Source: Haloarcula halophila (lineage in GTDB: Archaea; Halobacteriota; Halobacteria; Halobacteriales; Haloarculaceae). From it: 64,000 nucleotides of DNA. The translations under genes were made by a program, and so were the position numbers. Position 1 is the stretch's first letter, and each line of letters begins with the position of its first letter. Positions 21,438-30,834 of the stretch are shown here, one piece after another. Below the pieces are notes generated by a model that searched no databases, had not been told where the DNA came from, and saw nothing but the letters and a program-made list of their open reading frames with translations. The DNA lies in NCBI RefSeq assembly GCF_029278565.1, contig NZ_CP119559.1, positions 2,170,001 through 2,234,000 on the forward strand. Reading direction: 5' to 3'.

Positions 21438-23765
21438 TCAGCGGGTCAGCCGCGCGCTCGCCGCGAGGGCCTGGCCGTAGGCGATCCCGGCGTCGCCAGG
21501 CGGCACTCGGTCGTGGCTCAGATAGGTAAACCCCGCTGCCCGCACCCGCTGTCGGAACCGTCGGTCGATCGCCTCGTTGTAGGCCACACCGCCGGTGAAC
21601 CCGACGGCGTCGACGCCGCGATCGCGAGCGGCGTGCAGTGCGATCTCGGCGAGCCCGTCGGCCACGAGTCGCTGTGCGGTCGCCGCGACGTCGGTGTCGG
21701 GACGGGCGTCGGTCAGCGCCGCCAGTCGCGCCATGAGTCCGTAGGTGTCGAGCAGGCGCTGGCCGTCCCGTTCGAACGTCTCCGACGCTATCGCGACCGG
21801 TTCGCCACGGCGCGCGAGCGACTCTAGCCGCATCGCCGGCTCGCCCTGGTAGCGGCGCCGGGTACAACAGCCCAGCAGCGCCGCCACGCCGTCCAGGAAC
21901 CGGCCGACGCTCGTCGTCGGCGGGCTGTTGGTCCCCTGGGTCGCCTGCCGGAGGACGGCCCTCGCGGCCTGGGGCGTGTCGACGGTCCCGGACGACAGCA
22001 GGAGCGACCGGGCCCGCTCCCGGTCGCGCCCGGCCAACAGCCCCGCGGCGACCCGTGCCGGTTCCTCGACCGCTCGGTCCCCCCCGGGCAGCGGGAACCG
22101 GTCGAGTCCGCCGACGCGGTCGCTGTTCGCCAGTCGAGCGTCGAGAACCTCGCCACCGCGGACGACCCCCTCGGGTCCCCAGCCGGTCCCGTCGGCGGCG
22201 ACGACGATCGAACGGGAACGGTCGCCTTCCCCGAGCAACGAGGCGGCGTGGGCGTGGTGGTGCTGGACCGGGACGGCGCGCTCGGAGCGGTCGGCCGCGA
22301 TGGCGGTCGTCTCGAAATCGGGGTGTGCGTCGTGGGCGACCACGTCCGGGGAGACGTCGAGCAGGTCCCGGAGCCGCTCGGTCGCCGAGCGGTGGAAGGC
22401 CGCAGTCGCTGGGTCGTCGACGGTGCCGACGTGCTGGGAGGGGACGACCCGGTCGCCGCGCGTGAGCGCGACGGTCACGTCGGTACGGGCCCCGAGCGCC
22501 ACCACCTCACTCCCGTCGGGCGGACGAACGCGGCGGGGGAGCGCCCGCGGGACGAACCCGCGGGATCGCCGAACCAGCCGGCGGTCGCCGCCGACGACCC
22601 GGAGGACGCTGTCGTCACACCGGTTCTCGATCCCGCGGTCGTGGACGAGCGCGGCGTCCGACGCGTCGAGGCTTCGGAGTTCCTCGGCGGTGGTCGCCAT
22701 CGGCTGCCCGGGCCGGTTCGCGCTCGTCACCACGAGCGGTACCTGGGGCAGGCGGTCGAACAGCAGGTGATGGAGGCCGCTGTATGGCAGCATGACGCCG
22801 ACGGTGTGGAGGCCGGGCGCGACGTGGTCGGCCCACAGCGGCCCGTCGTGGTCGAGGAGGACGATCGGACGCCGACGCCCGGTGAGCGCCGCCCGCTCGC
22901 GCTCGGTGACCGTCGCGAACTCCCGCACCGTCGACAGCGACGGCGCCATCGTCGCGAGGGGCTTGGCCGGCCGGTCGAGCACCCGTCGGAGCCGCCCGAC
23001 AGCGTCGGCGTCGGTCGCGAGACAGGCCAGGTGACAGCCACCGGTCCCCTTGATCCCGACGACCTGCCCGTCCCGGAGGAGATCGGCGGCCCGGGACAGC
23101 GCGGTCGTCCCCTCCACCCGGTCGCCGGGGTCGGTCTCTATGGCGAGGGACGGGCCACAGGCCGGACAGGCGATCGTCTGTGCGTGGTAGCGCCGGTCGG
23201 TCCGGTCAGTGAGGTCTGCCCGGCAGTCAGGACACGGCGGAAACGGCGCGAACGCAGTCCGCCGGCGGTCGTACGGTAGTCCGTCCGTGACGGCGAACCG
23301 CGGCCCACAGTCGACACAGCCGGTCGCCCAGTACTCGGTGAACCGCGAGTCCTCGTCACGGATATCGGCGAGACAGGACTCACAGACGGCCGTGTCGGGC
23401 GGAACCAGAGCCGCCCGGTCGCCGTCGCTGTCCGAGTCGGCGATCACGAACTCGTCGGCCCCGCGGAGCGGGACGGACTCGACGGTGACCTCCTCGATGC
23501 GGGCCAGGCGAGGCGGGTCGGTCCGGACGGCGTCGACGGCCGCCTCGACGGCCTGCTCGTCCCCCTCGAACCGGATCCGGACCCCCGCGTCGGTGTTCCG
23601 GACGGTCCCGCTCAGGCCGTACTCGGCCGCCGTACGGGCGACGAACGGACGGAAGCCGACGCCCTGGACCGTCCCGGTGACGGTGAGATGGACGGCCGTC
23701 GGTTCTTCCGAGGACCGTCCCGGTTCCGCTGGACAGTCGGCGTCAGTGTTCGTGTTCGTGGGCAT
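21438..23765 (-). CDS. hypF: Hydrogenase maturation carbamoyltransferase HypF
   Basis: Makes the CN precursor for the [NiFe] site from carbamoyl phosphate and transfers it to HypE. The 775 residues contain all four HypF parts: an acylphosphatase domain (VQGVGFRPFV near 33), zinc fingers (CESCL...CVDCG and CPDC...CPACG, about 128-205), a YrdC-like domain (GTGGCHLACLA near 240; SANRPGQPM near 348) and a Kae1-like domain (VQHHHAHAASLL near 500; GFTGGVAYNEAI near 725). The start overlaps the hypB end by 23 bases. It is the last gene of the hydrogenase operon. Confidence 0.95.
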   Translation of the reverse strand: MPTNTNTDADCPAEPGRSSEEPTAVHLTVTGTVQGVGFRPFVARTAAEYGLSGTVRNTDAGVRIRFEGDEQAVEAAVDAVRTDPPRLARIEEVTVESVPLRGADEFVIADSDSDGDRAALVPPDTAVCESCLADIRDEDSRFTEYWATGCVDCGPRFAVTDGLPYDRRRTAFAPFPPCPDCRADLTDRTDRRYHAQTIACPACGPSLAIETDPGDRVEGTTALSRAADLLRDGQVVGIKGTGGCHLACLATDADAVGRLRRVLDRPAKPLATMAPSLSTVREFATVTERERAALTGRRRPIVLLDHDGPLWADHVAPGLHTVGVMLPYSGLHHLLFDRLPQVPLVVTSANRPGQPMATTAEELRSLDASDAALVHDRGIENRCDDSVLRVVGGDRRLVRRSRGFVPRALPRRVRPPDGSEVVALGARTDVTVALTRGDRVVPSQHVGTVDDPATAAFHRSATERLRDLLDVSPDVVAHDAHPDFETTAIAADRSERAVPVQHHHAHAASLLGEGDRSRSIVVAADGTGWGPEGVVRGGEVLDARLANSDRVGGLDRFPLPGGDRAVEEPARVAAGLLAGRDRERARSLLLSSGTVDTPQAARAVLRQATQGTNSPPTTSVGRFLDGVAALLGCCTRRRYQGEPAMRLESLARRGEPVAIASETFERDGQRLLDTYGLMARLAALTDARPDTDVAATAQRLVADGLAEIALHAARDRGVDAVGFTGGVAYNEAIDRRFRQRVRAAGFTYLSHDRVPPGDAGIAYGQALAASARLTR

Positions 23766-24528
23766 GGCTGTCGGTGCGGTGAGCGTCGAGTTCGCCGACG
23801 AGGCGCTCGATCCCGGCCCTGGTCCGAGCGCTGGTCCGGACGACCGGGATCGAGGGTGCGACCTCGGCCAGGTCGGCGACCATCCGGTCGACGTCGGTCC
23901 CGACGGCGTCGGCGATGTCCACCTTGTTGATCACCGCCAGGTCGGCCGCCTGGAACAGCAGCGGGTGTTTCCGGACGACGTCCTCGCCCTCGGTGACGCT
24001 GACGACGACGACTCGGCAGTGCGTCCCGAGCGGGAAATCGGCCGGACACACCATGTTCCCGACGTTCTCGACGAACAGCGTGTCCAGTTCCGCCACCGGA
24101 AGGTCGGCCAGCGCCGTCTCGACCCGCTCTGGGTCGAGGTGGCAGTCCTTGCCCGTGGTCACGTCGACCGCCGGGACCCCGCTCTCCCGGTACCGTTCGG
24201 CGTCGTCCGCGCCCGCTACGTCGCCGGCGACGACCGCCGTCCGCTCGCTCGCCGGGAGCCGTTCGACCACCCGCTGGACGAGGGCCGTCTTGCCGCTACC
24301 GGTCGCGCCCATGAGTTCGACGGCGAACACGTCGTTGTCGTGTGACAGCCGCTGGTGGACCTCGCGCGCCCGGTCACGGACGGCCTCGAGGACGTCGCCC
24401 ATCGGAGCTCCGGCGTCGCCGTCGCTCACGCCGTCGTGTCCGAACCGGTGGGCGTGGACCGGTCCCACGCCACGGGCAAGCAGTCGGTCGAGACGCTGTG
24501 CGATCGAAGTGGTGTGTCGGTCGTTCAT
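23743..24528 (-). CDS. hypB: Hydrogenase nickel-insertion GTPase HypB
   Basis: GTPase that loads nickel into the large-subunit precursor with HypA. The 261 residues show the P-loop GATGSGKTALVQR near 75-87, CHLDP and NVGNMVCPADF with the metal-binding cysteine, and NKVDIAD for guanine recognition. The C-terminus is a short His-rich tail (DSHAHEHEH), a possible nickel store; in many bacteria the His-rich stretch is at the other end. The ATG at 24528 overlaps the hypA stop as ATGA. Confidence 0.95.
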   Translation of the reverse strand: MNDRHTTSIAQRLDRLLARGVGPVHAHRFGHDGVSDGDAGAPMGDVLEAVRDRAREVHQRLSHDNDVFAVELMGATGSGKTALVQRVVERLPASERTAVVAGDVAGADDAERYRESGVPAVDVTTGKDCHLDPERVETALADLPVAELDTLFVENVGNMVCPADFPLGTHCRVVVVSVTEGEDVVRKHPLLFQAADLAVINKVDIADAVGTDVDRMVADLAEVAPSIPVVRTSARTRAGIERLVGELDAHRTDSHAHEHEH

Positions 24529-24890
24529 CGTTCGGGAACCTCGATCGTTTCGAGACGACACTCCCGGCCCGCGGTCAGCGTGACCGGATCGCCGCACGCG
24601 GGACAGCGCCGGGACGGGGCCGCCGGCACGGTTTCTGTGAGCGAGGGGAGTCGACCGCTCCATCCGCAGTCACACTCGCCGGCGGGTTCGACGTGTTCGA
24701 ACGCGACGGTCGCGCCGGCCGCGGCGGTGTCCTCGGCGACGGCCTCGATACAGAACCTGACCTGGGGCGCGTGGAGGTGTGTCGCCGTCCCCAGCGCGAC
24801 GGTCATCGCCCGGACCCGGTCGGCCCCCCGTTCGGCGGCGGCGGCGACGGCCCGGTCGACGAGCCGCTGGGCGATGCTGAGTTCGTGCAT
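24525..24890 (-). CDS. hypA: Hydrogenase nickel metallochaperone HypA
   Basis: Nickel chaperone of 121 residues. It begins MHELSIAQRL, where the initiator Met and His-2 form the nickel site. The zinc site uses two cysteine pairs: CDCGWSG near 74-76 and CPACGDP near 96-99. The stop overlaps the hypB start, and the ATG is 1 base from the hypE stop. Confidence 0.95.
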   Translation of the reverse strand: MHELSIAQRLVDRAVAAAAERGADRVRAMTVALGTATHLHAPQVRFCIEAVAEDTAAAGATVAFEHVEPAGECDCGWSGRLPSLTETVPAAPSRRCPACGDPVTLTAGRECRLETIEVPER

Positions 24891-24891
24891 C

Positions 24892-25968
24892 TCAACAGAT
24901 CCGCGGGAGTTGTTCGCCGCTGGCCTCCGTGAGGTACCGCTCCCCGATGCCGGTGTCGACGACGACCCGACCGGTGTGGTCGTCGACCGCCCGGCCGATC
25001 AGCGCCGCTTCGTCGCCAGCGGAACGGGCCCGCACCGCGTCCCTGACGGCGGCCGCGTCCTCGGGCGCGACTCCGAGTACTAGTCGCCCCTCACAGGCGA
25101 CCCGGAGGGGGTCCAGTCCCAGCACGTCGGCGGCGCTCTCGGTCGGATCGGCCACCGGGACCGCCCGGCCGTCGAGGTCGATGCCGACCTCGCTGGCGGT
25201 CGCGAGTTCGATCAGCGCGGTCGCCAGTCCGCCACGCGTCGGGTCCGTCGCCGCGGTGACCTGCCCGGCCTCGCGGGCGGCAGCGACGAGGTCGTCGACA
25301 GGGGCCACGTCGCTCTCGATGTCGGTGGCGAACTCGAACCCCTCACGCTCGGCCAGCAGTGCGACGCCGTGGTCGCCGACGGGGCCGGTCACGAGCAGTC
25401 TGTCGCCCGGCGAGAGGCCGGCCGTCGGCAGGTGTGCGCCCGGGGGAACGAACCCGACGCCGGCGGTGTTGACCACGACGCCGTCCACGTCGCCGGCGGG
25501 CACGACCTTCGTGTCACCGGTGACGATCCGCGTCCCGACCGTCTCCGCGAGCCTCCCCATCGAGTCGAGGACCCGTTCGATCAGGGGTTCGGGCGTCCCC
25601 GCCTCGACGACGAGGCCACAGGTCAGCGCGAGCGGCTCGGTCACGCCCATCGCAGCGAGGTCGTTGACCGTGCCGGCGACCGCGAGCGTGCCGATGTCGC
25701 CGCCGGGGAACTCCGGTGGATCGACGACGTGGCTGTCGGTCGTCACGACCAGCGAGTCACCGTCGGTCGGGAGGACCGCACCGTCGTCCAGCGCAGTCAG
25801 CCCGAGCCCGTCCGTTCCCCCGGCCAGTGCGAGCCGCGGCACGACGGTCTCCGTCAACAGGTCCCGCATCTCCGCGGTCCCGGCGCCGTGGGCGGTCGTC
25901 AGTGTCTCCGGTCCCGTCTGGTCGTCCGGCCGACTGGCGGTCGACTGCGGATCGGCGTCGCCGCTCAT
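24892..25968 (-). CDS. hypE: Hydrogenase maturation protein HypE
   Basis: Dehydrates the carbamoyl group to thiocyanate on its own C-terminal cysteine for transfer to iron. The 358 residues end in PRIC, the expected carrier cysteine, and carry the PurM-like ATP-binding motifs GAVLPTDGDSLVVTTDSHVV and ATDPTRGGLATAL. The first 35 residues are a polar extension. The ATG at 25968 overlaps the hypD stop as ATGA. Confidence 0.95.
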   Translation of the reverse strand: MSGDADPQSTASRPDDQTGPETLTTAHGAGTAEMRDLLTETVVPRLALAGGTDGLGLTALDDGAVLPTDGDSLVVTTDSHVVDPPEFPGGDIGTLAVAGTVNDLAAMGVTEPLALTCGLVVEAGTPEPLIERVLDSMGRLAETVGTRIVTGDTKVVPAGDVDGVVVNTAGVGFVPPGAHLPTAGLSPGDRLLVTGPVGDHGVALLAEREGFEFATDIESDVAPVDDLVAAAREAGQVTAATDPTRGGLATALIELATASEVGIDLDGRAVPVADPTESAADVLGLDPLRVACEGRLVLGVAPEDAAAVRDAVRARSAGDEAALIGRAVDDHTGRVVVDTGIGERYLTEASGEQLPRIC

Positions 25969-27077
25969 CGTCCGCGCACCTCCCCGTACTCCTGGTCGAT
26001 GCGACAGGGTCCCTCGTCGCTGACCATACAGGCCCCGACCGGGTCGGCCAGCGTACAGGCCTCGCCAAGCAGGGGGCAGTCCGCCGGCTCTGCCCGCCCG
26101 GCCATGATCTCGCCGCAGATGCAGTCTGTCGCCCGGTCGTCGCCGTCTCCGGCGTCGATGTCGAACCGCTCGCGAGCGTCGTGGGCCGCGTACTCCGCCC
26201 GGAGCTGTAGCGTGGCGTCGGGGACCTCCGCGATCCCGCGCCACTGGCCGGGGACCCGCTCGAACACCGTCCAGAGAGCCTCCTGGGCGGCCTCGTTGCC
26301 TGCTCGGCTGACACACCGGGGGTACGCGTTCTCGACGGTCGCCGTCCCGTCGGCCAGCTGTTCGAGCAGTTCGACCAGCCCGTAGAGGACGTCGACGGGT
26401 TCGAATCCCCCGACGACGACGGGGAGGTCGTAGTCGGCGGCGACACGCTCGTACACCTCGGTGCCGGTGATCGTCGCCGCGTGACCGGCCGCAAGGAACC
26501 CGTCGACGCGGGTGTCCGGGTGGTCCGCGACCAACTCCATCGCGGGCGGGACATACTTGTGGGCCGACAGGACCGAGAAGTTCGACGGGACGCCCTCGCG
26601 GAGGACGCTCGCGGTGGGCGCGGCCGTCGTCTCGAAGCCGACACCGAAGAAAACGACCTCGTCGTCGGTTTCCCGGGCGATGTCGGCCGCCTCGGCCGCG
26701 CTGTAGACGACCCGGACGTCGGCGCCCTCGTCGCGGGCGTCGGCGAGGCTCCCGTCGCTGCCCGGGACACGGAGCATGTCGCCGTAGGTGGCGACCACCG
26801 CGCCGGAGCGGGCCAGCGCGACCGCCTCGTCGACCTCGGCGCTGTCGGTGACACAGACCGGACAGCCCGGTCCCATCGCCACCGTCAGCCCGTCGGGCAG
26901 GACGGCCCGGAGGCCGTACTCGGCGATCGCCTCCTCGTGGCTCCCACAGACGTGAACGACCCGGACGGGCGTGTCGACCGTCTCGACGAGGTCGGCGAGC
27001 CGTTCCCGGAGCGCACCGGCCCGGTCGGGGTCCCGGAAGGAGAGGGCCTCGATCCCCTCCTCGACGGCGTCGGTCAC
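25965..27077 (-). CDS. hypD: Hydrogenase maturation Fe-S protein HypD
   Basis: Scaffold on which Fe(CN)2CO is assembled with HypC. The 370 residues hold CGSHEEAI (44-51) with the catalytic cysteine, GPGCPVCV near 69-76, GVGFETTAAPTA, and the C-terminal cluster cysteines in CICGEIMAG, CPLLGEAC and GACMVSDEGPC. The GTG start overlaps the hypC stop as GTGA. Confidence 0.96.
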   Translation of the reverse strand: MTDAVEEGIEALSFRDPDRAGALRERLADLVETVDTPVRVVHVCGSHEEAIAEYGLRAVLPDGLTVAMGPGCPVCVTDSAEVDEAVALARSGAVVATYGDMLRVPGSDGSLADARDEGADVRVVYSAAEAADIARETDDEVVFFGVGFETTAAPTASVLREGVPSNFSVLSAHKYVPPAMELVADHPDTRVDGFLAAGHAATITGTEVYERVAADYDLPVVVGGFEPVDVLYGLVELLEQLADGTATVENAYPRCVSRAGNEAAQEALWTVFERVPGQWRGIAEVPDATLQLRAEYAAHDARERFDIDAGDGDDRATDCICGEIMAGRAEPADCPLLGEACTLADPVGACMVSDEGPCRIDQEYGEVRGR

Positions 27078-27349
27078 GGCTCCTCACCTCCGGCTGGTTG
27101 GCCGGCGGACCCGGAGGACCCGCCCGGAGCCGCGCCGTCGATGGCACTCTCGTAGAGTTCGACGGTCCGTTCGACCTGTTCCTCGGGGATCTTCCGGATG
27201 GCGAAGCCGGCGTGGGTGAGTACGTGGTCGCCGACGCAGACGTCGTCGCCGACGATCTCGACCCTGATCCACTTCTGTGCGCCGCCGAAGTCGACGCGGG
27301 CCTCGGGCGGGTCGAGTTCGACGACCTCGCCGGGGACGCCCAGACACAT
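27074..27349 (-). CDS. hypC: Hydrogenase assembly chaperone HypC
   Basis: Small chaperone of 91 residues that carries the Fe(CN)2CO unit and holds the large-subunit precursor. It begins MCLGVPGEVV, with the essential Cys-2, and has VGDHVLTHAGFAIRKI, the family core. The last 20 residues are a Gly/Ser/Pro tail. Its ATG overlaps the protease stop as ATGA. Confidence 0.95.
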   Translation of the reverse strand: MCLGVPGEVVELDPPEARVDFGGAQKWIRVEIVGDDVCVGDHVLTHAGFAIRKIPEEQVERTVELYESAIDGAAPGGSSGSAGQPAGGEEP

Positions 27350-27978
27350 CAGGGCTCACCCCCGTCGGCCGACGCTTCCCCCTGCCAGGGGTCCTGCGAG
27401 AGGAGCCGCTCGGGTCTGAGCCGCCCTCTGACGCTGTGCCCGTCGAGTTCGTGATCGTCGACCGCGTCGGCGTCGATCTCCGCCTCGCAGTCGACACAGT
27501 ACCAGGTCGCGTCCATGAATCGGTCCGTTCCGTCGTGTCGGTTGTCGGTGAGTTCGGCGGCGGCGACGGCGGCGGCGTCCGGGACGACCGGCGCGACCGT
27601 CGGACTCAGGCCGACGGTCGGCTCGACGGTGGCCGGGACCACCCCGACGACGACCACCCTCGGCGGGAGGTCGTAGACACCACTGCAGGTCCGGACCGCC
27701 TCGGCGAAGGTGAAGTCGTGCATCGCCACCTCCGTCGGCGCCTCCCCGTCCTCGAGCCGCGTCCGGACGACCGTTCCCGGGGGACAGTCCGCGTCGACGG
27801 CGTCGACGACGACCCCGCGGGGACGGCCGTCCATCGCCTCCAGAGCGAGCATCGCCGTCGTCCCGGCGAAGGTGGCGTCGAGCCCGGGCCGGCGTTCGGC
27901 CAGGGCACGGACGACCGCCCGACCGAGGCCGTCGTCGCCCATCGTGGGGTTGCCGACGCCGACTGCGACGCCGGTCAT
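27349..27978 (-). CDS. Hydrogenase maturation protease with C-terminal zinc-finger-like extension
   Basis: Cuts the C-terminal peptide from the nickel-loaded large subunit. The first 145 or so residues are a HyaD/HupD-type endopeptidase: VGVGNPTMGDDGLG near 7-20 with the nickel-sensing acidic residue, VVVDAVDADCPPGT near 56, MHDFTFAEA near 86. The remaining 60 residues are not part of the usual family: they contain WYCVDCEAEID and DDHELDGH, a C-x2-C-x11-H-x4-H pattern that could bind zinc. The ATG at 27978 overlaps the large-subunit stop. A much longer frame upstream only mirrors the large-subunit gene. Confidence 0.88.
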   Translation of the reverse strand: MTGVAVGVGNPTMGDDGLGRAVVRALAERRPGLDATFAGTTAMLALEAMDGRPRGVVVDAVDADCPPGTVVRTRLEDGEAPTEVAMHDFTFAEAVRTCSGVYDLPPRVVVVGVVPATVEPTVGLSPTVAPVVPDAAAVAAAELTDNRHDGTDRFMDATWYCVDCEAEIDADAVDDHELDGHSVRGRLRPERLLSQDPWQGEASADGGEP

Positions 27979-29495
27979 CGGCTCCCCCCGGGTGCGTGTG
28001 GTTCGATCTCGGTCTCGAAAGTCTCCTCTGGGCCGTGGACGTGGACGCCACAGCCCAGACAGGGGTCGAACGACCTCACGGTCCGCATCACGTCGATCGG
28101 GTCGGCGACGTCGTCGACGGTGATCCCTTCTGCGGCCGTCTCGAAGACGCTCGGTTCCCCGTCGGCGTCTCGGGGCCCGAGATTCCAGGTCGTCGGCGTG
28201 ACGATCTGGTAGCCCGTGACCCGGCCGTCCTCGATCTCGACCCAGTGAGAGAGGGCCCCGCGCGAGGCCCCCCAGAAGCCGACCCCGCGCCCGGAGAAGT
28301 CGTCGGTCCAGTCGGCGGTCGTCGGTGCCGAGGTGTCGAGCACGTCGAGCCACTCGAGCAGGTGTTCCCGGACCAGCAACACCTCCTGGAGCCGGGCCGC
28401 CAGACGGTTGAACGTGCTCGATTTCCGCGGGTCCCCGCCCATCTCCGCCCGGAGCGAACCGGGGTCCCGCTCGGCGGCAATCAGCCGGGCCAGCGGCCCG
28501 GTCTCCATCGACTGCCCCTCGTATCGCGGGGCCTTCCCCCAGGAGTACGCGCCGTCTTTCTCGGGTTGGGGGGCCGGCGGCGGCGCGTCGGCCGGGCTGC
28601 CGCCGGAGTCGTCGCTGTACCACGCGTGAGAGACGTCCTCGGTGATCCCCGCGATCAGCTCCTCGCGGGTGGGACGGTGAAGCTCCCCGTCCCGGTAGAC
28701 GCCGGGGGAGAGGACGAGGGACTCGTCGCCAGTGCCGTAGAACAGCCCGTTTGCGTAGAACCGGCCGGGGCCGACGCCGAAGTCGTCGGCGCCGGCCTCG
28801 GCCGCCCCGACGAGGATCGAACACATGTCGTACAACCCTTCGGCGTGGTCGGGCACCGGGCCGCGGTCACGGGCCGCCGTCAGTGCCGGCCGGAGTTCCT
28901 CCGCCGGGCCGAGCCAGTCGCTGACTGCCTCGACGGTCTCCCGGACTGTCTCGACGGTCGCGTCGTCCGGATCGGCGGTGACGCCGCCGGGTGCGTACGT
29001 CAGCGGGTGAGGGGCCCGGCCGCCGAACTCCGAGAACGCCTGCAATAGCGCGCGCTGTTGTTCCAGGGCCCGCTCGTAGCCCGCTCCTTCGACCGGGTCG
29101 AGCCGGTCGAAGCCGCTGTCGGCGACGGCGTCGCTGTAGTCCGGCCCGGCAAGCGCGAACAGGTGGATGGTGTGGTTCCACAGCAGGAACATCCCTTCCA
29201 TGATGTCCCGGAGCAGGCGGCCCTGTTCGGGGACCTCGTCGAAGACGCCGGCCCGGCGGGCCGCGTCCTCGATCGCCAGCAGGGACGCCTGGCGGTGGCA
29301 GGTGAAACAGACGCCACAGACCATCTGTGTCACCTGCGGAACGTCGGACGGCTGACGGTCGAGGACGATGTTCTCGATGCCTCGGAACATGTTCATCTCG
29401 CTCTCGACCCGGGTGACGGTTCCGTCCTCGACGGTCAGGGTCGTGCTGTGGTGGCCTTCGATGCGCGTCGTGGGGTCGATCTCGATCTCTGGCAT
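27975..29495 (-). CDS. [NiFe] hydrogenase large subunit
   Basis: Catalytic subunit holding the Ni-Fe site, 506 residues. The nickel cysteines are C60 and C63 in MVCGVCFTCH (H67) and C479 and C482 in DPCLGCGVH. After H485 a 21-residue tail (starting VHGPEET) is the peptide removed by the maturation protease, so a dedicated protease is expected and is encoded next. The N-terminal IDPTTRIEGHHSTTLTV is the usual L0 region. The residue two before C60 is Met where most [NiFe] hydrogenases have Arg. It follows the small subunit by 6 bases. Subgroup of group 1 not decided. Confidence 0.95.
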   Translation of the reverse strand: MPEIEIDPTTRIEGHHSTTLTVEDGTVTRVESEMNMFRGIENIVLDRQPSDVPQVTQMVCGVCFTCHRQASLLAIEDAARRAGVFDEVPEQGRLLRDIMEGMFLLWNHTIHLFALAGPDYSDAVADSGFDRLDPVEGAGYERALEQQRALLQAFSEFGGRAPHPLTYAPGGVTADPDDATVETVRETVEAVSDWLGPAEELRPALTAARDRGPVPDHAEGLYDMCSILVGAAEAGADDFGVGPGRFYANGLFYGTGDESLVLSPGVYRDGELHRPTREELIAGITEDVSHAWYSDDSGGSPADAPPPAPQPEKDGAYSWGKAPRYEGQSMETGPLARLIAAERDPGSLRAEMGGDPRKSSTFNRLAARLQEVLLVREHLLEWLDVLDTSAPTTADWTDDFSGRGVGFWGASRGALSHWVEIEDGRVTGYQIVTPTTWNLGPRDADGEPSVFETAAEGITVDDVADPIDVMRTVRSFDPCLGCGVHVHGPEETFETEIEPHAPGGSR

Positions 29496-29501
29496 CGGTG
29501 T

Positions 29502-30725
29502 TCAGATGGGGAGTTCGGACCAGCTGATCGGTTCACCGTCCGGACGCCGCCGGTCGTACGCCCACAGCGCGGCGACGACCGGGGCCAGCGGGACCGCCAG
29601 TACCAACAGTCCGAGCGCGACGACGACGCCGACGACCCCCATCCCGGCGTCCGTGTCCGCGTCAGTCGGGGACGCCACGGCGTCGGTCCCGGGCTGTTCG
29701 GCCTCGGTCTCGGCGTCAGGATCGCTTCTCGCGTCGTCCCGACCGGCCTCGTAGAAGGGCGTAAACCGGTCCCAGAAGGCCGGTTCGACACAGCCGATAC
29801 AGGGGGCACCGACCTGCCGGCAGACGGTGGTCCCGCCGTTTCGCAACCGCATCGAGCCGTCACAGTGGGCGTAGACGCCCGCACAGCCGGCGTCGTACAG
29901 ACAGCCGTCGTCGCCGGGCTCGGCGGCGAAGTCGCCACATTCGTACTCCGGCCGGAGCGAACAGTCGTCGTGGACCAGCGGCCCGAACAGCGGCAGCGGT
30001 CGGTTGTACTCGTCGAGCCGCGGCTCGTGGCCGTTCAGGACCGTCGCCAGGGTCAGCAGGAGGTGGTCGGCGTACAGCGGACACCCCGAGACGTTGACGA
30101 CGGGGAGTCCGCTGTCGGTCCGGAACTCCGGGCCGAAGATTCCCCCGGCCTCCTGCCCGTCGAACTGGAGGCCCGTCGCGCCGGTCGGACTCTCGCCGAC
30201 GGTGTCGCCGTCGAACCGACCGGCGGCCGGCAGCCCGCCGAAGGCCGCACAGCTCCCGGCCGCGATGACGACGTCGGCCCGCTGGCCGAGTTCGATCACC
30301 CAGTCCAGCACCGGCCGCGGCTCGCCGCGCTCGTCGACCCCGAGAGTCGCCGCCCGCGGGATCCGGGTCGGGATCGCTCCTTCGATGATCAGGACGTCCG
30401 GCGAACGCTCCAGTCCGGCCATCGCGCCGTCGCCCGACGGCGTCATGAGCGTCGAGTGGAAGCTCATCCGCTCTCGCAGGTCGCTCAGGGCGTCCTCGAC
30501 GCCGGGGGCTTCGCTCTGGAGGAACGACATCGTACAGCCCGAACAGCTCTGTCCCTGGATCCAAGCGACCTCCGTTGTCCCGTCGAGCCCGCGGTTCAGC
30601 GCCGCGAGCAGTTCCTCGCTGTACTCGGTGACGACCGTCCCCGGCTCCTGGTGCTGAGCCAACCGGAGGAAGTCCGGCCGTCGGTGGTGCGTTTCGAGCG
30701 TCGTCGACTGGAGGCTCGCAGTCAT
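29502..30725 (-). CDS. [NiFe] hydrogenase small subunit with C-terminal membrane anchor
   Basis: Electron-transfer subunit with Fe-S clusters, 407 residues. Proximal-cluster cysteines lie in QSCSGCTMSF (C61, C64), AAGSCAAFGG and VSGCPLYAD; the other clusters use HDDCSL, ECGDFA, DDGCLYDAGC, AHCDGS and CRQVGAPCIGC. A single membrane helix at about 362-390 is followed by DRRRPDGEP, so by the positive-inside rule the enzyme faces outside. The N-terminus has RRPDFLRL, like a Tat motif, but no hydrophobic core after it. It is the first gene of the operon. Confidence 0.94.
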   Translation of the reverse strand: MTASLQSTTLETHHRRPDFLRLAQHQEPGTVVTEYSEELLAALNRGLDGTTEVAWIQGQSCSGCTMSFLQSEAPGVEDALSDLRERMSFHSTLMTPSGDGAMAGLERSPDVLIIEGAIPTRIPRAATLGVDERGEPRPVLDWVIELGQRADVVIAAGSCAAFGGLPAAGRFDGDTVGESPTGATGLQFDGQEAGGIFGPEFRTDSGLPVVNVSGCPLYADHLLLTLATVLNGHEPRLDEYNRPLPLFGPLVHDDCSLRPEYECGDFAAEPGDDGCLYDAGCAGVYAHCDGSMRLRNGGTTVCRQVGAPCIGCVEPAFWDRFTPFYEAGRDDARSDPDAETEAEQPGTDAVASPTDADTDAGMGVVGVVVALGLLVLAVPLAPVVAALWAYDRRRPDGEPISWSELPI

Positions 30726-30791: not shown

Positions 30792-30823
30792 AGCTCTGTG
30801 TATCGCCGACCCAACTGTCTGGG

Positions 30824-30834
30824 TCTTTTAATAT
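30824..30834 (-). promoter_or_regulatory. Likely TATA box of the hydrogenase operon
   Basis: On the minus strand ATATTAAAAGA is the only strong A/T box in this part of the gap. It lies about 104 bases before the small-subunit ATG, which would give a leader of roughly 78 bases, long for a haloarchaeon. The same box read on the plus strand (TCTTTTAATAT) also resembles a TATA box. Confidence 0.4.

Follow-up and report, generated by a model that had tools for sequence, protein, structure and literature searches.

In the stretch of haloarchaeal DNA analysed here (64,000 nucleotides, referred to as the window), a nine-gene [NiFe] hydrogenase operon occupies positions 21438-30725 of the minus strand, as a sequence-only reading of the same DNA had proposed. 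The small and large subunit genes come first, followed by those for the protease and for HypC, D, E, A, B and F. All are tightly packed; the largest gap measures 6 bases, and the other junctions are overlaps of 1-23 bases or a gap of a single base. The operon is intact, with zero frameshifts and zero internal stops in the nine genes. Its genes, together with a candidate regulator and a candidate promoter, are listed below.

29502-30725, minus strand: hydrogenase small subunit (SSU), 407 aa; PF01058, PF14720 and PF24379; CSGC proximal site; no Tat signal; predicted C-terminal transmembrane (TM) helix
27975-29495, minus strand: hydrogenase large subunit (LSU), 506 aa; PF00374 with 277 bits; L1 QMVCGVCFTCH and L2 DPCLGCGVH; C-terminal extension for proteolytic maturation
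27349-27978, minus strand: maturation protease (HyaD/HycI family) fused to a CxxC...H zinc-ribbon-like domain; TIGR00072 with 100 bits over residues 6-143
27074-27349, minus strand: HypC; PF01455 and TIGR00074
25965-27077, minus strand: HypD; TIGR00075 with 411.8 bits
24892-25968, minus strand: HypE with the C-terminus PRIC; TIGR02124 with 339 bits
24525-24890, minus strand: HypA; PF01155
23743-24528, minus strand: HypB; TIGR00073 with 235 bits
21438-23765, minus strand: HypF; TIGR00143 with 707 bits
20784-21422, plus strand: candidate DmsR-like regulator; PF24277 and PF04967 (DmsR_N and HTH_10); convergent with the operon end
30808-30831, minus strand: candidate promoter/operator upstream of the operon; TATA-like box directly followed by a GACCC-N8-GGGTC dyad

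A profile search placed all nine operon genes above Pfam cut-offs. HypB, C, D, E and F also passed NCBIfam equivalog or subfamily cut-offs; HypA scored below TIGR00100 but above its Pfam cut-off. The large subunit, with CGxC at L1 and DPCxxC at L2, and the small subunit, with PF01058, PF14720 and three cluster sites, carry the marks of group 1 [NiFe] enzymes. The cysteines of L1 (CGVC) and L2 (DPCLGC-GVH), the glutamate of RIEGH and the C-terminal extension are all kept in the LSU; selenocysteine was not found at L2, where DPCLGC is written with an ordinary Cys codon, and the gene has no in-frame TGA. Alignment of the SSU revealed a full set of Fe-S ligands: (i) CSGC at the proximal cluster; (ii) four cysteines at the medial cluster; (iii) one His and three Cys at the distal cluster. 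By reference to known structures, this subunit is predicted to hold three [4Fe-4S] clusters, without features of O2 tolerance at the proximal one. The differences between the window LSU and its relatives fall mostly at third codon positions (0.37-0.40 vs 0.13-0.18), a bias that fits purifying selection. Since the LSU keeps its active-site residues and extension and the SSU its cluster ligands, and since LSU change is third-position-biased, the hydrogenase is probably functional; the earlier claim of a working enzyme with its own maturation set, whose genes are likewise intact, is supported in this qualified form. Contamination is unlikely, because the operon lies on a contig of 3.04 Mb and its flanks (taw1 and, at the opposite end, ribK-ribB) keep the gene order of other genomes of the genus.

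Published haloarchaeal operons are of the hydABC type; they begin with a small subunit exported by Tat, a large subunit and a cytochrome b, HydC, and continue with hydD and the hyp genes (PMC5437934, PMC6176080). The plasmid operon of AArc1 (Natrarchaeobaculum sulfurireducens) is of this ordinary type: the genes for the two subunits, small before large, are followed by those for cytochrome b, the protease and a small separate protein, and last by the hyp genes. The window shares with the hydABC group 1a systems of AArc1 and Halodesulfurarchaeum formicicum (PMC6176080, PMC5437934) homologous SSU and LSU proteins (58% LSU identity between window and AArc1), the clustering of hydD and hypA-F with the structural genes, the hypC-D-E-A-B-F order and the small zinc-ribbon-like protein. 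It differs in the SSU tail, in the fusion of the protease to the zinc-ribbon-like protein, and in the loss of both the Tat export signal and HydC, the latter missing from the operon and not found elsewhere in the genome. The operon can thus not be called complete, as had been stated.

Joint loss of the Tat signal and HydC in clade B

In a tree of LSU and SSU cores, from which the N-terminal signal and the C-terminal tail were excluded, the window groups with nine other loci in a clade (clade B) supported at 100/100. The Tat/HydC state changes once, in 100% of bootstrap trees. In an LSU tree that includes bacterial outgroups, clade B is nested with Tat-bearing, HydC-bearing relatives.

The Tat status was called from motif and hydropathy. 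The motif RRxFL is missing from all ten clade-B SSUs, whereas RRNFL occurs in 23/23 hydC-bearing relatives. The residues FL are kept in nine of the ten, and the following 14 residues hold 4-7 charged residues and are not hydrophobic (window RRPDFLRLAQHQEPGTVV, against TRRNFLRLAGTMAAGGVI in a relative); the tenth SSU, L231, reads PDFTELAQDVDPGTVM. hydC is absent from 10/10 clade-B operons, with none following the LSU gene. Family and protein searches, on which the whole-genome statements rest, were extended to the six genomes of the window's subclade; no HydC homolog was found anywhere in them, nor any cytochrome b that reached the cut-off of PF01292. Three genomes have an ordinary copy as well as one of clade B; in these, the only HydC found adjoins the ordinary copy.

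These data bear on the possibility that the enzyme is still an ordinary respiratory uptake hydrogenase of the hydABC type, exported by a degenerate signal and feeding menaquinone, with another cytochrome in place of HydC. The gene order and the hydD and hyp set are indeed the same as in published operons (PMC6176080), and the window SSU retains an RR dipeptide close to FL (RRPDFL). However, the spacing of this dipeptide is wrong, RR is missing in most clade-B members (for example QPDFL in L032, QTDFL in L127 and RYDFL in L128), the hydrophobic region is gone in all, and the six subclade genomes offer neither HydC nor a PF01292 protein above cut-off. An ordinary exported enzyme is consequently regarded as unlikely.

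The lineage shows two more changes, one in the SSU tail and one in the protease gene. The SSU of relatives ends in a weakly hydrophobic segment with the motif GAHxxRKxxGYG, found in 9/10 of the HydC-bearing rows scored; in clade B this motif is lost and the tail forms a segment of high hydrophobicity whose core resembles PLxP (tail hydropathy 1.9-2.7, vs 0.9-1.6 in relatives). The window tail passes the cut-off of DUF7535, a family of small haloarchaeal membrane proteins. An AlphaFold model (overall pLDDT 62, pTM 0.60, moderate) gives it as one 28-residue helix, residues 364-391; a C-terminal membrane hairpin, considered on account of the PLxP motif, was rejected in favour of a single TM segment, since the model contains one long helix. 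A stand-alone DUF7535 membrane protein resembling the SSU tail is encoded at G000:C1:1631204-1631377 (L193). The protease is fused in frame to a CxxC-His protein in 6/6 members of the window's subclade and in 6/7 protease-carrying clade-B operons, the fusion being absent in the deeper branch L231. In relatives the zinc-ribbon-like CxxC-His protein is a separate ORF, as in L111 (7892-8074) and in AArc1.

The haloarchaeal group 1 hydrogenase type is itself known; the new part is the lineage with a predicted joint loss of export and cytochrome b, of which no description was found in a literature search. A 2024 survey reported group 1 clades without a previous description in a number of phyla, Halobacteriota included (PMC11018855). 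Three clade-B loci, L128, L133 and L134, consist of small and large subunit pairs with no protease or hyp genes nearby; an ordinary hydABC copy is present in the same genomes, and these enzymes are presumably matured in trans.

Distribution, acquisition and regulation

A nickel-hydrogenase LSU was detected in 41/391 sampled Halobacteria genomes, about 10% of the species genomes, and in 20/86 genera. Within the window's genus it occurs in only two of 32 genomes, the second of which (G295) carries it at another chromosomal place. The assertion that hydrogenases are rare in Halobacteria is correct insofar as the trait is patchy and confined to a minority; the rarity is one of degree. Haloarchaeal growth that depends on H2, with sulfur or DMSO, has already been described, as have hydABC-hydD-hyp clusters (PMC5437934, PMC6176080), so an operon of this kind, though a minority trait, is no novelty by itself.

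The spacing between taw1 and ribK is about 117-199 bp in the congeners G295, G083, G106 and G102, and 10.7 kb in the window, where it is filled by the operon and the regulator gene. In five further congeners (G393, G228, G392, G301 and G384) the interval measures 1.1-4.5 kb and holds no hydrogenase remnant; the search for operon remnants in the taw1-ribK gap of congeners returned chance-level matches only. Other genes occupy this region in L183, L184, L185, L191 and L192, among them, as named by eye, a large membrane protein (L183) and RNA cyclase-like and UspA-like genes (L185). The insertion site looks variable among congeners. The GC content is 72.2% for the operon and 67.2% for the window, and the window LSU is closer to proteins of other genera (79% identity to Natronomonas MAG LUM.42, 78% to Halovenus carboxidivorans) than to that of congener G295 (73-75%). 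The insertion between taw1 and ribK, the higher GC content and these identities together indicate that the operon was horizontally acquired. A link to CO oxidation, considered because Halovenus carboxidivorans is a close named relative, was dropped; CoxL exceeded its cut-off in that genome only and not in the other five of the subclade. A hydrogenase-specific nickel transporter was likewise uninformative, as CbiM is encoded by congeners that have no hydrogenase and missing from some that do.

Three subclade members out of six have a DmsR-like gene beside one end of their operon: the window, in which the DmsR_N and HTH_10 domains were assigned, and L033 and L106, whose copies were recognised by BLAST. 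A rough Poisson estimate, with 5-38 paralogs per genome, gives P values of 6e-7 to 2e-4 for this adjacency, which is unlikely to be due to chance. DmsR and NarO, of the same regulator family, activate genes of anaerobic respiration (PMC1447603, PMC11218638). Upstream of the operon, a TATA box with a CCC-N6-10-GGG dyad is present in the window, L106, L033 and L231, and in 0/23 relatives. The pattern was drawn from the first three, and L231 was an independent match obtained afterwards; it is very rare elsewhere, with 7 matches in 1.94 Mb of strand sequence, operon promoters included. The DmsR/NarO-type regulator and the conserved dyad suggest expression at low oxygen.

Cellular location and electron route

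The reading preferred here is that of a working hydrogenase which arose from the haloarchaeal respiratory group 1 hydABC type, lost the Tat signal and cytochrome b together, and would now lie tail-anchored on the cytoplasmic face of the membrane, using another acceptor, with uptake presumed. On the present evidence this is fairly probable. Hydrogenase small subunits that bear Fe-S clusters are exported through Tat; since this signal is lost, we infer that the enzyme stays in the cytoplasm, where it would fold and be matured with the help of its own HypA-F and protease. The hydrophobic SSU tail, which might in principle cross the membrane in either orientation, would then anchor it facing the cytoplasm. 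H2 would be oxidised at the NiFe site and the electrons passed along the three [4Fe-4S] clusters to an acceptor on the inner face. As HydC is missing, they need a route other than cytochrome b; they may pass to soluble ferredoxin, straight to membrane quinone or to a respiratory dehydrogenase, candidates among which no choice is made here. An unrelated cytochrome/quinone module elsewhere in the genome could also stand in for HydC; no partner gene common to all clade-B operon neighbourhoods was found. Its ancestry is the reason for presuming that the enzyme takes up H2 and does not evolve it. Of the suggestion that the cell draws electrons from hydrogen, an intact and probably functional [NiFe] hydrogenase is retained, but the route into respiration cannot simply be assumed with HydC and the Tat signal missing.

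Comparison with characterised enzymes reveals partial parallels. The Huc hydrogenase faces the cytoplasm. Huc (group 2a, Mycobacterium smegmatis, PDB 7UTD/7UUR) is the best PDB sequence match of the window SSU and, as predicted for the window enzyme, works without cytochrome b, its electrons reaching quinone by delivery through HucM (PMC11018855). It differs in its proximal CSGN, against CSGC in the window, whose LSU is closest to group 1a/NiFeSe enzymes; no HucM-like scaffold gene is present in the window operon. The best PDB match of the window LSU is the periplasmic [NiFeSe] hydrogenase of Desulfovibrio (PDB 5JSU), which shares with it three predicted [4Fe-4S] clusters and four cysteines at the medial site. 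In contrast to that enzyme, the window protein is archaeal, has Cys instead of selenocysteine, bears a TM tail and is predicted not to be exported. The actinobacterial-type hydrogenase of group 1h (PDB 5AA5) functions without Tat export; compared to it, the proximal cluster of the window has four cysteines and not Cys3Asp, and the sequence match is low.

A cytoplasmic hydrogen sensor or bidirectional redox valve, as opposed to an energy-conserving enzyme, would agree with a cytoplasmic location, with the lack of a dedicated electron acceptor subunit and with the adjacent transcription regulator gene. To our knowledge, regulatory hydrogenases have neither a cleavable extension nor a TM anchor; the window enzyme retains the C-terminal extension, the protease and the anchor, and no histidine kinase is adjacent, which makes such a role quite improbable. 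A related system of another genus does appear damaged: in two genomes (L117, 8260-9309; L124, 8180-9175) the SSU bears a Tat signal, repetitive sequence of low complexity has taken the place of its C-terminal Fe-S half, and no hydC is left, so that this hydrogenase is probably broken. That the window operon is a similar decaying remnant, its HydC and Tat losses marking a non-functional enzyme heading for loss, is very doubtful despite this broken-looking relative and the patchy occurrence in the genus, since the window and the rest of the six-member subclade keep nine intact ORFs in spite of deep divergence (LSU identity 70-79%, with change biased to third positions) and the newly shared tail and protease fusion argue for selection.

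Returning to the tail-anchored, cytoplasm-facing enzyme, export and the transfer of electrons to a membrane cytochrome are commonly seen as belonging together in group 1 hydrogenases, and clade B has lost both at once. With enzyme and maturation genes intact despite the double loss, the clade would provide a clean system for studying how an enzyme is re-sited across the membrane and rewired to a new acceptor. The wider proposal, about as likely as not, is that of a natural inversion, in which an exported, cytochrome b-linked group 1 enzyme would have become a cytoplasm-facing, tail-anchored one whose electrons go straight to a new partner, be it ferredoxin, quinone or a respiratory complex, and which has spread among haloarchaea by horizontal gene transfer. 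A hydrogenase call in a haloarchaeal genome should not automatically be taken as H2 respiration through HydC.

Two further variants were met among haloarchaeal hydrogenases. The SSU of L111 (10930-12030) has CSGD at the proximal cluster, with Asp as a possible fourth ligand, in an operon that is otherwise of the ordinary Tat- and hydC-bearing kind. The loci L136-L142 represent a second, very different haloarchaeal type, with an LSU of 660-720 aa at 28-30% identity and a CDGC motif in the SSU, most of them having some hyp genes nearby.
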